Shown here: positions 15,794 to 20,442 of the stretch, piece by piece
How positions within the stretch are numbered: the stretch's first letter is position 1
Layout: each line of letters opens with the position of its first letter
DNA from: a virus
Direction: 5' to 3' (one strand)
IMG/VR virus record: IMGVR_UViG_3300025141_012750
Coordinates: 1 to 21,069 of that record
Length of the DNA: 21,069 nucleotides
The notes under the pieces: model-generated
Database searches by the model: none
Told to the model about the DNA's origin: nothing
The model's input: only the letters and a program-made list of their open reading frames with translations
Translations under genes and position numbers: made by a program

Positions 15794-17252
15794 TATCATC
15801 ACCCTGTGTCGCTGGTGTTGCGGTTAGTGGGGCCTCTTGGCTCCGGTTCAGAATCTTTGTCATCCGATCAATATCAATAAGTCTACGAACAGCCTCTTCA
15901 TCTGAGTCAACGCCGGGATTTAGCCGACGATAGGCTTCGACACGGGAGATCAGTCCCATTTCTAGCTCGGATTTTATGACTTCCGTGTGGGTCTTGCGCT
16001 CTTCGGGCGTTGTTCCCACATTTGAGTATTCAATACGGTATTCCCCAGGCTCCTCAGGCAGACCGGGAGACGGAACAGCGTATGCGTTGGCCATCTTTGC
16101 GGCTTTTGCCAGAATGCGCTGATCAGCCATGCGTCGAGCTGGTTCTGTACGCTTCTGCTGGGCTCTCTTCCCCTGGTTGGAGACCACAATGGCATACCCC
16201 GACTGGCCCTGAGTCAGTTGCAGGTCGCTTGGGTTCAATCCAGCGTACACCGCCAAGCCCTTTTCGTACATCCGGAGCGATTCTGCCGCCGTTCTGGCGT
16301 CCATGGCGGGCGAATACTGCCCAAGCACAGCCCCAGTAGGGCCATCCGACTTAAATCTCAGAATGGACTTGTGATCTGTCGGGATGACTTCGACGTTGTG
16401 ACCAGAATAGTGCCTGGTGATACCGGCCTGCGTGGAGACATCGACCGCGTAGCGCTGCGGGTGCGATGCAGAGGTAAACCCATCGCCCCAGTGGGTCCAC
16501 AGAGCAGCGAGGCGCAGCGAACCAGCCACGAGCTCCGCTCCGGTATGGTAGGACCAGAGCTGTGGCGCAACTTCTGCATGAATAAGTTCATATGGAAGTA
16601 TGGGATTGCCTTCTCGGTCCATGTATGGATATTCGCCTGCCAAGTCCGGAGCGAATTGAGCGGTTACATCGGCCCAAACGTCTCCGGACTTGGTCAAGAT
16701 CTTGAATATCGGAGTCGGGGACATGACATCCCAGATTTCCTTGGTCCAGACCTCTTCGCCATTGGGCAAATGGCGCAAGCGAACTTCTGAAACATAGCCT
16801 GGAACGTCTGGTTGATCAGGCAACGCCCGGCAAACGACCAGGTCTGGAGACACTGGGCGATACCGAACCTTGGTGCCACCCGGAACCCAGTCAAGGCGGA
16901 ACAAAGACTCGCGGATAGCTTGCGCCCAGAGATCAGCCGTCTGCCTTTGGGGCCAGAGCCGATGGGTAATCACAGACGAGAGGCCGGGCTCAGCCCCGCT
17001 CCTTAGCGTAACCATTGGCGCGTCAAGGTATGCGTTGCAAAGTTGCTGCCAGACCATCCGAAACGTATTTCGCGAAAGGTCAGGATTAACCTCGAGTTCC
17101 ATCGAGACTTCTGCGGCAAACATGCTTCGGATTTCTTCGATTACATCGTCACGCTGTTGCCCCGTCAACATCCGATAGCGGAGGCTCTGAACATCCCATC
17201 GAGAGATGTCCTCATCGGACTGGGGCATGTAATCGCCAGGTATGTCGTACAT
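15675..17252 (-). CDS. Portal protein
   Basis: This protein forms the dodecameric ring at one capsid vertex through which DNA enters and leaves. It has 525 residues from the ATG at 17252 (GGAG 5 bases upstream), 10 bases after the terminase stop. The core (about residues 60-430) includes TFRMVWQQLCNAYLDAP near the start, a mixed central region and a helical stem-like segment YEKGLAVYAGLNPSDLQ, then the line SRVEAYRRLNPGVDSDEEAV (about 440-462), which is common in portals. The last 50 residues are acidic and Gly/Ser/Glu-rich, low complexity, and are the part overlapping the scaffold frame. Position next to terminase and scaffold gives strong support. Confidence 0.85.
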   Translation of the reverse strand: MYDIPGDYMPQSDEDISRWDVQSLRYRMLTGQQRDDVIEEIRSMFAAEVSMELEVNPDLSRNTFRMVWQQLCNAYLDAPMVTLRSGAEPGLSSVITHRLWPQRQTADLWAQAIRESLFRLDWVPGGTKVRYRPVSPDLVVCRALPDQPDVPGYVSEVRLRHLPNGEEVWTKEIWDVMSPTPIFKILTKSGDVWADVTAQFAPDLAGEYPYMDREGNPILPYELIHAEVAPQLWSYHTGAELVAGSLRLAALWTHWGDGFTSASHPQRYAVDVSTQAGITRHYSGHNVEVIPTDHKSILRFKSDGPTGAVLGQYSPAMDARTAAESLRMYEKGLAVYAGLNPSDLQLTQGQSGYAIVVSNQGKRAQQKRTEPARRMADQRILAKAAKMANAYAVPSPGLPEEPGEYRIEYSNVGTTPEERKTHTEVIKSELEMGLISRVEAYRRLNPGVDSDEEAVRRLIDIDRMTKILNRSQEAPLTATPATQGDDNERRNEGGDSELSGDGAELPAERGIGEEEESGGAVIEDS

Positions 17253-17262
17253 ATGATCTCCG

Positions 17263-18666
17263 CTACCCGATCAGCATCAGACCCGGTCCCTTGCTTCCGC
17301 TCGGGGCCAAGTATATCTCAGAAATGTAACCGCAACTGTCGAATGGGTCCTTCAAATCGTCATTTGCTCCTCTCCAGTGGCGCAAAGTATGGATCAAGCG
17401 GGTGCATCCGCGATGAACCCGGAATCTCCCATCAACACATGCGCTCGACATCATCCGTACCCGCGCATCAATCGAACCCCTACGCTTGTACGGAACCCGA
17501 ATGTCGAACGGTGGCCGTGATGACGAGCAGATTTTGGCGAACTCGCGCATATAGAGGTCGTTCAGAGAGAACCCCATCCCCATCTTGCCCGCACTGTTGG
17601 AGTCTCCTCGAGCCTCATCCACGTCTGATGGCTCTATTCCCCAGGTCCTCATCATTTCAGTGATGGCTCTGGCCTCTGAGGCCGGGGTTGAGAGTTCGTC
17701 ATCACAATGCTCATCGAGAACCCAAAGAGCAAACCCGTCCCAAGCAACCAGGTGGCAGACCGACTTACCGGGGCGCACCCCGTGGTCGAATCCAAGCCCG
17801 ATTGACTGGATGTTTTGCGGGATCTCGTCATCATCGAACAGATTGCCCTCCGAAAAGCCCGAAACCCAACGATCTTTCGTGAGACCTTCCCACTGCGCCA
17901 AGATCCGTTGGTTGTATTCCCATGGCGAACACTCCATCTTCTGGGCCTCAATATCCTCTTCACCACGATGCGGCGCATTCTCTTTAGAGAGCTCAATGTG
18001 TTCAACGTGCCACCCGGGTTCAGGTTCAACATTGTCCTCAACAGAGCCCTCGAGCATGTGTTGAAGCCACCCTACAGGACGCCCCACAGGCGTTAGCGTA
18101 AGCCAGTAGGGCGCCATATCCATGGTCAAACGTGCTCTTAGGCCGTGCCAGTGACTTTCTTTGGGGGGTTCATCGACCCACGCCCATTGGACCCTTTTTG
18201 ATTCCAGGGCAAGTAGCGTCTGCTCACACCCCTTCCCAACCATCTGGCTTCCGTTCACCGTTCTCAGAATCTTTTGACTTCGATACAGGTATCCAATCCC
18301 TGGAACATACTTACAAGACCCATCCAGAACACCTGGTGGCTCCAGTTCGTGCATGACTTCCGAGATCGTTTCCCATCCCGTCCGCAGATCGGAACACAAG
18401 ACCCACCCGGTGGAGCCTGGATTTGGAACTTCACGGTACGGGTGGTCGGAGAGCAGGTGAAACCACGCTTCCGCAGCGCCCCAGTACGTCTTTCCTACCT
18501 TATTGGCCGCAATAAATGCCCTCTTCCGGTTCTGTGACATGTGGAACCGCTTCTGCGGTGGCGACATTCCACCCCGCTCACCTGGCGCTTCACCACAATA
18601 CTTCGCCAGACCATTCTTCTGGTATCCGCGTGCAGTGTTGATAATAAACGCAGCAGGATCGAACAT
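17263..18666 (-). CDS. terL: Large terminase subunit (packaging ATPase and nuclease)
   Basis: This protein drives DNA into the procapsid and cuts concatemers. It has 467 residues. The Walker A-like loop is ANKVGKT at 54-60 (variant: the first Gly is Ala), Walker B is WAWVDE at 161-166 with the catalytic Glu, and the coupling motif is LTLTPVGRP near 190-198. A C-terminal RNase H-like nuclease follows, with candidate acidic residues in GLGFDHGV (about 288), VLDEHCDDE (about 313), DEARGDS (about 343) and KDPFDSCGY (near the end). It starts with a one-base overlap (TGATG) with the preceding small gene. This is the best identified protein of the window. Confidence 0.93.
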   Translation of the reverse strand: MFDPAAFIINTARGYQKNGLAKYCGEAPGERGGMSPPQKRFHMSQNRKRAFIAANKVGKTYWGAAEAWFHLLSDHPYREVPNPGSTGWVLCSDLRTGWETISEVMHELEPPGVLDGSCKYVPGIGYLYRSQKILRTVNGSQMVGKGCEQTLLALESKRVQWAWVDEPPKESHWHGLRARLTMDMAPYWLTLTPVGRPVGWLQHMLEGSVEDNVEPEPGWHVEHIELSKENAPHRGEEDIEAQKMECSPWEYNQRILAQWEGLTKDRWVSGFSEGNLFDDDEIPQNIQSIGLGFDHGVRPGKSVCHLVAWDGFALWVLDEHCDDELSTPASEARAITEMMRTWGIEPSDVDEARGDSNSAGKMGMGFSLNDLYMREFAKICSSSRPPFDIRVPYKRRGSIDARVRMMSSACVDGRFRVHRGCTRLIHTLRHWRGANDDLKDPFDSCGYISEIYLAPSGSKGPGLMLIG

Positions 18667-18887
18667 CAGGGCACCCTCCCGGTTGGAATCGGTACTTCAA
18701 ATGGCGCCCTGGTAGGCAACGGCTTCTGGGTTGGCTGTTCTCGAGCCCATTTCACAACCGGGCCCCACTGTCTCAACCAGTCTTCCGCATCCACCCTGTC
18801 TTGCGCATGCTTTCCAGCGTGAACCTGTCTGACCACGTGAGCGTAGGCCTGGGTCAACGCAGCAATCATTTGATCTACCCTGTCCAT
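18666..18887 (-). CDS. 73-residue protein between the terminase subunits
   Basis: It starts at the ATG at 18887, one base into the small terminase stop (TGATG), with GAGG 7 bases upstream; the TTG one codon before is not needed. Residues 1-50 are predicted helical with an amphipathic pattern (DQMIAALTQAYAHVVRQVHA, DWLRQWGPVVKWAREQ), and the end is Pro-rich (PTQKPLPTRAPFEVPIPTG). I know no family. Coupling to both subunits suggests a packaging accessory protein, but this is only positional. Confidence 0.7.
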   Translation of the reverse strand: MDRVDQMIAALTQAYAHVVRQVHAGKHAQDRVDAEDWLRQWGPVVKWAREQPTQKPLPTRAPFEVPIPTGRVP

Positions 18888-19345
18888 CAAGACGCCTCTT
18901 CAATCGCTTCATACAAGAGCTCGGGCGGCAGATCCTTCAGCGCCTTCACAACCTGACGACGCCCCTCGAGTGTGGTCAGATCGCTACTAACTTCTGCCAA
19001 CTCATCCGGAACCTCTTCAATCGGCCCATCCTTTCGGAACCCAAATCTCCGCTCGAGCACCCAGGCACTGGCTTGCCAGGACCCATTCATCGCCGCCTCC
19101 TGAATGATTATCAGGTGACGCTCGACGCACTTTGCCTTGGACTCCTCAACCGTCTTCAACAACAACTGCAGCCGAGGATCACCAGCCCCATTCTTAGCCT
19201 GGGCCATCCACCGGTAGTACGTCGATTCCGTACAACCCGCATAAGCAGCCGCCGCAGCGCTCTTCAGCCCCAACTCGAAAGCAATACCCAGCTTCTCAAT
19301 GAGACTGGGTGTGAGCTTGTTTTTTAATTTTCTAGGTGTAGCCAC
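18887..19345 (-). CDS. terS: Small terminase subunit
   Basis: This protein recognises the packaging site and recruits the large subunit. It has 152 residues from GTG 19345-19343, 3 bases after the preceding stop; the binding site is GGGG/AGGG-like and not ideal. A helix-turn-helix lies at about 25-48 (AFELGLKSAAAAAYAGCTES then TYYRWM), followed by a helical oligomerisation region (LLLKTVEESKAKCVERHLII, AAMNGSWQASAWVLERRFG) and an acidic C-terminus (EEVPDELAEV) that ends PPELLYEAIEEAS. ‘AAxxxGxTExTxYRW’ is the classic HTH of small terminases. It is directly upstream of the large terminase. Confidence 0.88.
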   Translation of the reverse strand: MATPRKLKNKLTPSLIEKLGIAFELGLKSAAAAAYAGCTESTYYRWMAQAKNGAGDPRLQLLLKTVEESKAKCVERHLIIIQEAAMNGSWQASAWVLERRFGFRKDGPIEEVPDELAEVSSDLTTLEGRRQVVKALKDLPPELLYEAIEEAS

Positions 19346-19348
19346 GCC

Positions 19349-19606
19349 CTACTTCCCCTTCTTCCCCCTGCGCCTCTTATTTGAGGACTTCCTGGCCGCA
19401 GAGGCTCTCTTGTAGAAAGTCTTCTTCCCGACCTTCCTGCGACCAATATATGCCGCCAGGCCTTCCGGGTTGTAAACCTTCGACTTCCCACCCTTCTTGT
19501 TCCGGGTGCGCAAAGACTTCAACAACGCCTTCTTGGTCGGGTTTCGCTTTGAGGACTTCCCAGTCCTACGACGTTGCCTTGTAGCTTTGATTCCTCTTTT
19601 TGCCAT
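19349..19606 (-). CDS. 85-residue extremely basic protein, first gene of the late block
   Basis: 35 of 85 residues are Lys or Arg and only one is acidic (Glu at NPEG), a net charge of about +34. The start is ATG 19606 with AAGGG 8 bases upstream. Both ends are Lys/Arg/Ser tails (KRGIKATRQRRRTGKSSKR; KSSNKRRRGKKGK). A short ordered centre reads NPEGLAAYIGRRKVGKKTFY. It probably binds DNA or RNA and could condense DNA, assist packaging or antitermination. I recall similar NPxALAxxIGRKK cores in metagenomic phage proteins but cannot verify a family. It is directly upstream of the small terminase. Confidence 0.7.
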   Translation of the reverse strand: MAKRGIKATRQRRRTGKSSKRNPTKKALLKSLRTRNKKGGKSKVYNPEGLAAYIGRRKVGKKTFYKRASAARKSSNKRRRGKKGK

Positions 19607-19860
19607 TTCGGTAGCCCTTGACGAGTCAACGCCTTTTAAATTGGGGAAAGATCAGAGAGTGAGGCACACCCAGTCAGGCCCCCCCCTACCTCTCGATCGT
19701 ACCTCTCAGGGGCTCTCACGTCCAGCCCGCCCGACTCTATCGGCCTGGATGCTTCCGGCGAAGCGCTCGGTGCCAGGGCCAGGCACGAGGCCCCTGAGGC
19801 GCACTGGTGGCGCTCCATCATGCCCGGCTCGAACCGTCGGACCGATAGCCTGAACCGTAT

Positions 19861-19914
19861 AGGTTTCCATACGGGTGTATGAGTTTCCATACGGGTGTAT
19901 GGGTTTGCATACGG
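19861..19914. repeat. 20-base tandem repeats with internal dyads
   Basis: Two adjacent units share GTTTCCATACGGGTGTAT exactly (19863-19880 and 19883-19900); a third, weaker unit starts at 19901 (GGGTTTGCATACGG). Each full unit contains CATAC-GGGT-GTATG (19868-19881, 19888-19901), an inverted pair with 5-base arms. CCGTAT (19855-19860) also pairs with ATACGG (19869-19874). The 20-base period is about two turns of DNA, so bound proteins would stack on one face. Typical of operators, iterons or terminase-binding sites. Confidence 0.75.
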
Positions 19915-20087
19915 TTACTTTTACGGTCCGCACAAAGATCGGGTCCTGGTTCCTCCCCACTCCACAAAGGAAAGATCTCGCAAAACCCCGCAAGGCTTTG
20001 AGATCCGTAGGCTTACCATCCACATCCGATCATCAGTGAGATCCCCAGTCATCAGGGCCTGACATAATCATCTCCCGGGGTATCCCT

Positions 20088-20353
20088 GTTCCATGCTGTT
20101 CCATGCCCAAAACCGCATAGAACAAACGACACCAATGGTAGATACTGAACTATCGCAAGATATCCACCGGTTCCATGTCAGCAAAACCCTATACACCTGT
20201 AACGCGCCACACGATCCTCAGTATGATCACCAGTGAGGCTACAGGTTCTATTATATAAAAGGTCTGATCATTAAAGGTATATCACGATAGGCCAGGTTCA
20301 AGCGTAACTATCCCTTGTTCCATGGGTAGAACTATCCTGACCATTGATAGAAC
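20088..20353. repeat. Cluster of eight GTTCYA motifs on both strands
   Basis: GTTCCATG occurs at 20088, 20098, 20170 and 20317. GTTCTA is at 20245, and its complement TAGAAC at 20118, 20327 and 20348. The last two are part of TAGAACTAT copies exactly 21 bases apart; the first two are exactly 10 apart. A related (G/T)AACTATC string is present at 20147 and 20305. Eight hits in 270 bases is well above chance for a 6-base motif with one two-fold position. A protein-binding array is likely. Confidence 0.6.
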
Positions 20354-20399: not shown

Positions 20400-20442
20400 C
20401 ATGGCGGGGGGCACAACCCAATCAACCCAATCCCCCCCCATG
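20400..20442 (+). promoter_or_regulatory. G/C hairpin in the leader of the plus-strand genes
   Basis: CATGG-C-GGGGGG (20400-20411) pairs with CCCCCCCCATG (20432-20442), 11 pairs with one bulged C. The 20-base loop carries CAACCCAAT twice in tandem. It sits at the predicted 5' end of the message and its foot abuts the GGAG site (20442-20445) of the first small gene. It may stabilise the RNA or control access to that site. No T-run follows, so it is not a standard terminator. Confidence 0.5.

Follow-up and report, generated by a model that had tools for sequence, protein, structure and literature searches.

Several described systems can be set beside an array of repeated dyads in a phage control region. 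The lambda cosB R sites and SPP1 pac are recognition arrays of small terminases, and the late promoters of P2-type phages carry a dyad centred at about -55. In P2 and 186 these late-promoter dyads have the form TGT-N12-ACA and are bound by Ogr/B/delta (PMC3931495). In phi29, several imperfect inverted-repeat sites of protein p4, with the consensus CTTTTT-N15-AAAATG, are located between the early A2c/A2b promoters and the late A3 promoter; p4 is a dimer made early in infection, and its sites switch transcription from early to late (PMC3100819). The operators of HipB, TATCC-N8-GGATA, are four cooperative sites for a dimeric HTH protein of the Xre family (PMC3376134). Here we report an array of dyads which is novel in its sequence and in the clade that hosts it, and ordinary in kind.

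The array belongs to the window, that is, the whole virus record analysed here (21,069 bases, a marine-type phage fragment), and lies within a divergent early/late intergenic region of about 740 bp. The late genes follow on the minus strand in the order 85-residue basic protein, TerS, a 74-residue ORF, TerL and tape measure, and small early ORFs begin on the plus strand at about 20344. Among the late genes, three are referred to below:

19349..19606, minus strand: first late gene, encoding a very basic, Lys/Arg-rich protein of 85 residues without known family
18887..19345, minus strand: terminase small subunit (TerS), phrog_4102, E 1.4e-18
17263..18666, minus strand: terminase large subunit (TerL), with a weak Terminase_6N match

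The array itself, at 19855-19914, consists of three 20-bp units in exact head-to-tail tandem:

19855..19874, plus strand: site 1, CCGTATAGGTTTCCATACGG, with perfect 6-bp arms and an 8-bp spacer
19875..19894, plus strand: site 2, GTGTATGAGTTTCCATACGG
19895..19914, plus strand: site 3, GTGTATGGGTTTGCATACGG

The first-pass annotation had described two exact 18-base copies at a 20-base period. Both copies are present and slightly longer than claimed, with at least 19 bases (GTTTCCATACGGGTGTATG, at 19863-19881 and 19883-19901), and they span the junctions of sites 1/2 and sites 2/3. The period itself is real and well beyond what chance would give: with matches at 35 of 40 positions (0.875), the array outranks every other tandem repeat of period 15-30 in the window, while none of 20 dinucleotide shuffles of the complete window exceeds 0.647. 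The CATAC-N4-GTATG dyads (19868-19881 and 19888-19901, arising at the unit boundaries) and the flanking CCGTAT...ATACGG pair are both found as described. The stretch is also free of genes, as had been stated, being located between the 85-codon gene and the early ORFs, and the ORFs drawn across it have no conservation in relatives. What had been missed is that every 20-bp unit is a dyad of its own, GTAT-N8-ATAC with YGTAT-N8-ATACR symmetry, which makes a palindromic site of 20 bp, and not a direct repeat, the natural unit. A scan for promoters and terminators gave no sigma-70-like promoter, and no terminator at the array.

The same type of site is found at the same place, with the same gene order and in 1-6 copies, in six related contigs (TerL 90-94% identical); rather than being absent from such relatives, the outcome that the first-pass annotation had named as speaking against it, the dyad recurs in all six. 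Together with the window they form a clade of seven contigs, with near-duplicates among them (G001/G007 and G003/G006), and searches with the 85-residue protein and with a terS DNA pattern recovered only the same six contigs. In the 330-bp regions upstream of a conserved core (listed below), YGT-N12-ACR occurs 25 times in the seven genomes with 1.28 expected, and each of the other half-site spacers from 4 to 18 gives at most 4 occurrences. In the five non-redundant genomes, 18 sites are present at the peak spacer versus at most 8 in 2000 dinucleotide shuffles, the maximum being taken over spacers; with the window left out, there are 15 sites versus a shuffle mean of 1.41 and a shuffle maximum of 6. 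GTAT-N8-ATAC is present 10 times within 400 bp upstream of the core, in 5 of the 7 genomes, with no occurrence outside these regions in about 122 kb, and GTAT/ATAC pairs at other spacers form no comparable cluster. A matrix made from the window's three sites only has its genome-wide best match within the homologous 450 bp in five of the six relatives (G001, G002, G005, G006 and G007), and its second-best match there in G003. Overall, in all seven genomes the array is a clade-conserved, operator-like cluster of sites: repeated dyads with a single fixed half-site spacing recur in, and are restricted to, one gene-free control region, as in operator arrays. The earlier proposal that a DNA-binding protein has its binding array here is well supported by the same dyad, fixed spacer and same place in six relatives.

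The early/late organisation is clean in the relatives, with the array region at the junction, and in G001 this region is the sole divergent junction of early and late genes. G002 (L027) departs from the divergent arrangement of the other members, its small genes ahead of the control region (1077-2871) being oriented in the late direction. Beyond the clade, the exact full array has no match among the viral contigs searched, and in the more distant G008/L011 (71% TerL) neither this dyad nor the second motif family described below is clustered. Matches of the consensus site STGTATGRKTTTCCATACRG beyond G005 come from three unrelated contigs, two of them being hairpins just past a stop codon and one being intragenic, and they were set aside as chance or terminator-like.

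Within the clade, the sites vary considerably. Counted loosely, so that a few may be chance, there are 3 sites in the window, 6 in each of G001 and G007, 4 in each of G002 and G005, and 1 in each of G003 and G006. The single sites of G003 and G006 are degenerate, showing that the clade can do without a full array. The two-turn phasing of 20 bp pointed out by the first-pass annotation is true of the window (20/20) but is not kept in the relatives, where the spacings are 19-29 in G001/G007 and 31-183 in G005, and individual gaps are 19, 25, 27, 28, 31 and 46; as copy number, spacing and orientation all vary, the exact 20-bp phasing is specific to the window's phage. Among the 25 sites, the end pairs are CG in 11, TA in 9 and CA in 5, that is, pyrimidine/purine pairs both complementary and non-complementary, and this mix shows that the two half-sites vary partly independently. 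The asymmetric centre (TTTCC/TTTTCC) is on the late-sense strand in the relatives and on the opposite strand in the window. From an upstream block that ends in AAAAG to the core, the sequence is strongly divergent, yet the same dyad type recurs in it, with site centres at -18 to -216 from the end of the conserved core and a distance that varies among genomes.

Beside the array, the conserved elements are as follows:

19918..19955, minus strand: anchor block ending in GTAAAAG, adjoining the array, from the alignment of relatives
19689..19699, minus strand: core CGATCGAGAGG, on the late-gene side of the array, in all seven genomes
19633..19642, minus strand: A/T box AATTTAAAAG, which is TATATAAAAG in several relatives
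19618..19629, minus strand: TTGAC-N2-GTCAA dyad just before the 85-codon gene, at +59/60 from the core in all seven genomes

The first site starts within a few bases of the anchor block in the window, G001, G003, G006 and G007. On the late side, the order before the basic gene is CGATCGAGAGG, GTGCCTC, the A/T box and TTGACNNGTCAA, which is common to six relatives, and the A/T box is possibly the -10 region of a late promoter. The TTGAC-N2-GTCAA dyad has one further occurrence in 125 kb. At 19680-19689, right after GAGAGGT, the window and G005 have a late-sense run of G8-9 and the other relatives a run of C5-7, so that a G/C run at a conserved position appears to have changed strand. In addition, the early leader (about 20404-20440) contains G6 and C8 runs that could pair into a strong hairpin at the 5' end of the RNA, preceded by a TATAAT-like box, and most relatives are similar.

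Compared with the described systems, phi29 p4 would be the nearest by mode of action, having inverted-repeat sites where the early and late regions meet and an A-tract close to the centre of the dyad. However, its consensus is plainly unrelated in sequence and spacing, and the p4 sites overlap mapped promoters, whereas the late promoter here is putative. With the P2 Ogr dyads the array shares an identical spacing and a location upstream of late genes, and exact TGT-N12-ACA is present 9 times in the G001, G005 and G007 regions versus 0.26 expected. The window differs in carrying the YGT-N12-ACR variant, its sites ending in ACG on one side, and the sites here are clustered at variable distance instead of being single at about -55. 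The Ogr_Delta C4 zinc-finger family (PF04606) gave no match at E<=10 in any of the nine records, several of them being fragments, and since no Ogr_Delta protein is found, the array is not assigned to the P2 Ogr system. The HipB operators are alike in their N8 dyad geometry, their site of about 20 bp and the presence of several sites per control region, and the relatives encode an HTH_3/Xre protein; they differ in the half-site, and here we have a phage control region and not a toxin-antitoxin operon, with no HipA/HipB homologue noted. The lambda cosB R sites and SPP1 pac resemble the array in being repeated sites upstream of terminase genes, but unlike small-terminase arrays the one described here is not conserved in step with TerS, and the packaging-type constraint appears to be inside terS.

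On balance, we lean towards reading the array as a set of operators at which a dimeric regulator, made early, would control the late operon. The three adjacent 20-bp operators of the window, with the consensus S-YGTAT-N8-ATACR-S and an A/T-rich centre, would be bound by a homodimeric, sequence-specific regulator that is made by the phage and produced early in infection. They would act from the single divergent region that parts the rightward early genes from the leftward late genes (basic protein, terminase, head and tail), with several dimers side by side upstream of the late core (CGATCGAGAGG...A/T box...TTGACNNGTCAA). The most likely role would be timing the switch-on of the late operon, perhaps also turning the early genes off. 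The binding of a protein, its action on late transcription, the phage origin of the binder and the target promoter are what we infer here, and the array most likely docks a phage switch protein rather than serving as a DNA-packaging signal. Against the operator reading are the distance between sites and core, which varies unlike that of a classical activator, the lack of a sigma-70-like promoter, and the small size of the clade.

As for the regulator, all three relatives with the early region covered have a gene there for a Cro/CI-type HTH_3 protein, about 89 residues long (E 6e-15, 8e-11 and 4e-9). A search with the HTH profile gave the same three relatives and one distant contig, and the window's contig ends short of its early genes. 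The genes are:

G001 (L026), 26706-26975: early HTH_3 gene
G002, near 31380-31526, minus strand: early HTH_3 gene
G003, near 15978-16124: early HTH_3 gene

In the three relatives the flanks of this protein are largely invariant and many of the substitutions fall in the HTH, which suggests that its DNA specificity may have switched or drifted between close relatives. The HTH_3 protein would be the leading named candidate for the binder, better than TerS or the 85-residue protein, and the matching operator geometry of the HipB type fits this candidate. The second motif, TGTKCYA, is an equally plausible target of the HTH_3 protein as the array. In a more specific form, the HTH_3 protein would be the early-to-late switch, activating the late operon via the fast-evolving YGT-N12-ACR cluster, so that the P2-Ogr site geometry would have been reached by an unrelated protein whose specificity changes between close relatives; to this form we attach rather little likelihood.

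Among the other explanations, the one that survives best is a replication origin, and we still hold it to be unlikely. In this view the origin is the intergenic region, and the dyads are bound by an initiator such as the VapE-type SF3 helicase or a partner protein. The longer relatives (32.9 and 33.1 kb) encode a VapE-type helicase, SSB, an Erf-type annealase and RusA, so that an origin is needed, and this intergenic region is enriched in GATC and contains an A/T-rich minimum with TGTKCYA elements on either side, often spaced by 10-11 bp. However, these origin-like features are located on the early side, 100-500 bp from the array. The array lacks such A/T richness and shrinks to one site in two of the relatives. 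As an iteron candidate, TGTKCYA is distinct from the array and preferable to it. In all seven genomes it clusters on the early side, at offsets from -744 to -333 with one at -256, and is present on both flanks of the A/T minimum, with a dominant form that depends on the genome (TGTTCCA, TGTTCTA or TGTGCTA). In the window its elements are:

20316..20322, plus strand: TGTTCCA, on the early side
20118..20124, minus strand: TGTTCTA
20097..20103, plus strand: TGTTCCA
20087..20093, plus strand: TGTTCCA, 10 bp from the element at 20097..20103

This family (20087-20322) is a candidate for a replication origin or for early-repressor sites, and being the better candidate for either, it makes an origin at the array less likely. 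In all seven genomes the intergenic region has 1.4-2.1 times the GATC density of the remaining sequence, and G001 additionally encodes a Dam-type methyltransferase and GP88.

It appears improbable that the array is a packaging site, bound by the small terminase as a pac or cosB-like element. In favour of this, the array does lie upstream of terS, and arrays of the R type are known from cos phages. The TerS HTH (AAAYAGxTExTYYRWMAQA) is nevertheless near-invariant in the seven genomes, while the sites range from 6 to 1 and their orientation flips, so that the array does not follow TerS in its conservation; a weak counter-indication is the single variable residue of this HTH (S/A/T in E-x-TYYRW), which sorts with rich versus poor arrays. 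A better pac candidate than the array is a synonymously frozen stretch inside terS:

19292..19330, minus strand: terS codons 6-18, candidate pac/nucleotide element, AAATTAAAAAACAAGCTCAC..., with 10 of 12 testable codons identical in the seven genomes

The corresponding proportions are 18% in terL (P 1.5e-6) and 23% in the rest of terS (P 1.8e-5), pointing to a nucleotide-level element inside terS. In P22, pac is located in the terS gene (PMC9611059). In addition, every contig that covers the array region continues across it, and the break points of the two longest are elsewhere, showing no fixed terminus at the array. The first-pass annotation had named the small terminase and the basic 85-residue protein as possible binders, and both are now disfavoured: the former for its near-invariant HTH facing variable sites, with the constraint lying inside terS instead, and the latter for being 86-92% identical in the four members aligned, including G003 with its single weak site. 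The 85-residue protein has no Pfam, PHROG or cultured-phage match above noise, and its AlphaFold model is mostly helical with low confidence (pLDDT 71, pTM 0.38).

Just as little weight is given to an RNA element, in which the dyads would be hairpins in the late leader RNA, for antitermination or attenuation. The 71-nt stretch does fold better than shuffles (z -4.7 on the minus strand and -3.1 on the plus strand), but tandem palindromes fold anyway, and the relatives are weaker (z -2.2 and -1.6), with no hairpin array in G003/G006. On the late-sense strand 5 of the 25 sites have C-A mismatched ends, and no Rfam family scored above its curated cut-off. The asymmetric centre changes strand, and its location on opposite strands together with the varied end pairs argues for double-stranded DNA sites read by a dimer, not for an RNA hairpin. 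Finally, a regulatory protein of the host, such as a repressor or nucleoid protein that the phage exploits or endures, is a very improbable binder, since, common as this geometry is among bacterial dimeric HTH proteins, no cellular genome with the phage was found when cellular genomes were searched with a TerL profile, and site number and sequence diversify so fast at 90% TerL identity that a phage-encoded, co-evolving partner fits better.

The operator reading concerns a clade whose cultured relatives, in the collection searched, do not go beyond 22-26% identity in TerL and 30-37% in the helicase, with no match in a nucleotide search against phages and no integrase recognised. For such a clade, without cultured kin beyond this distant terminase/helicase similarity, the array is the first concrete handle on its gene timing. 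The spacer-locked dyad, the turnover in copy number and the diversified candidate regulator would together make a testable case of operator-regulator co-evolution, in phages without recognised lysogeny genes.
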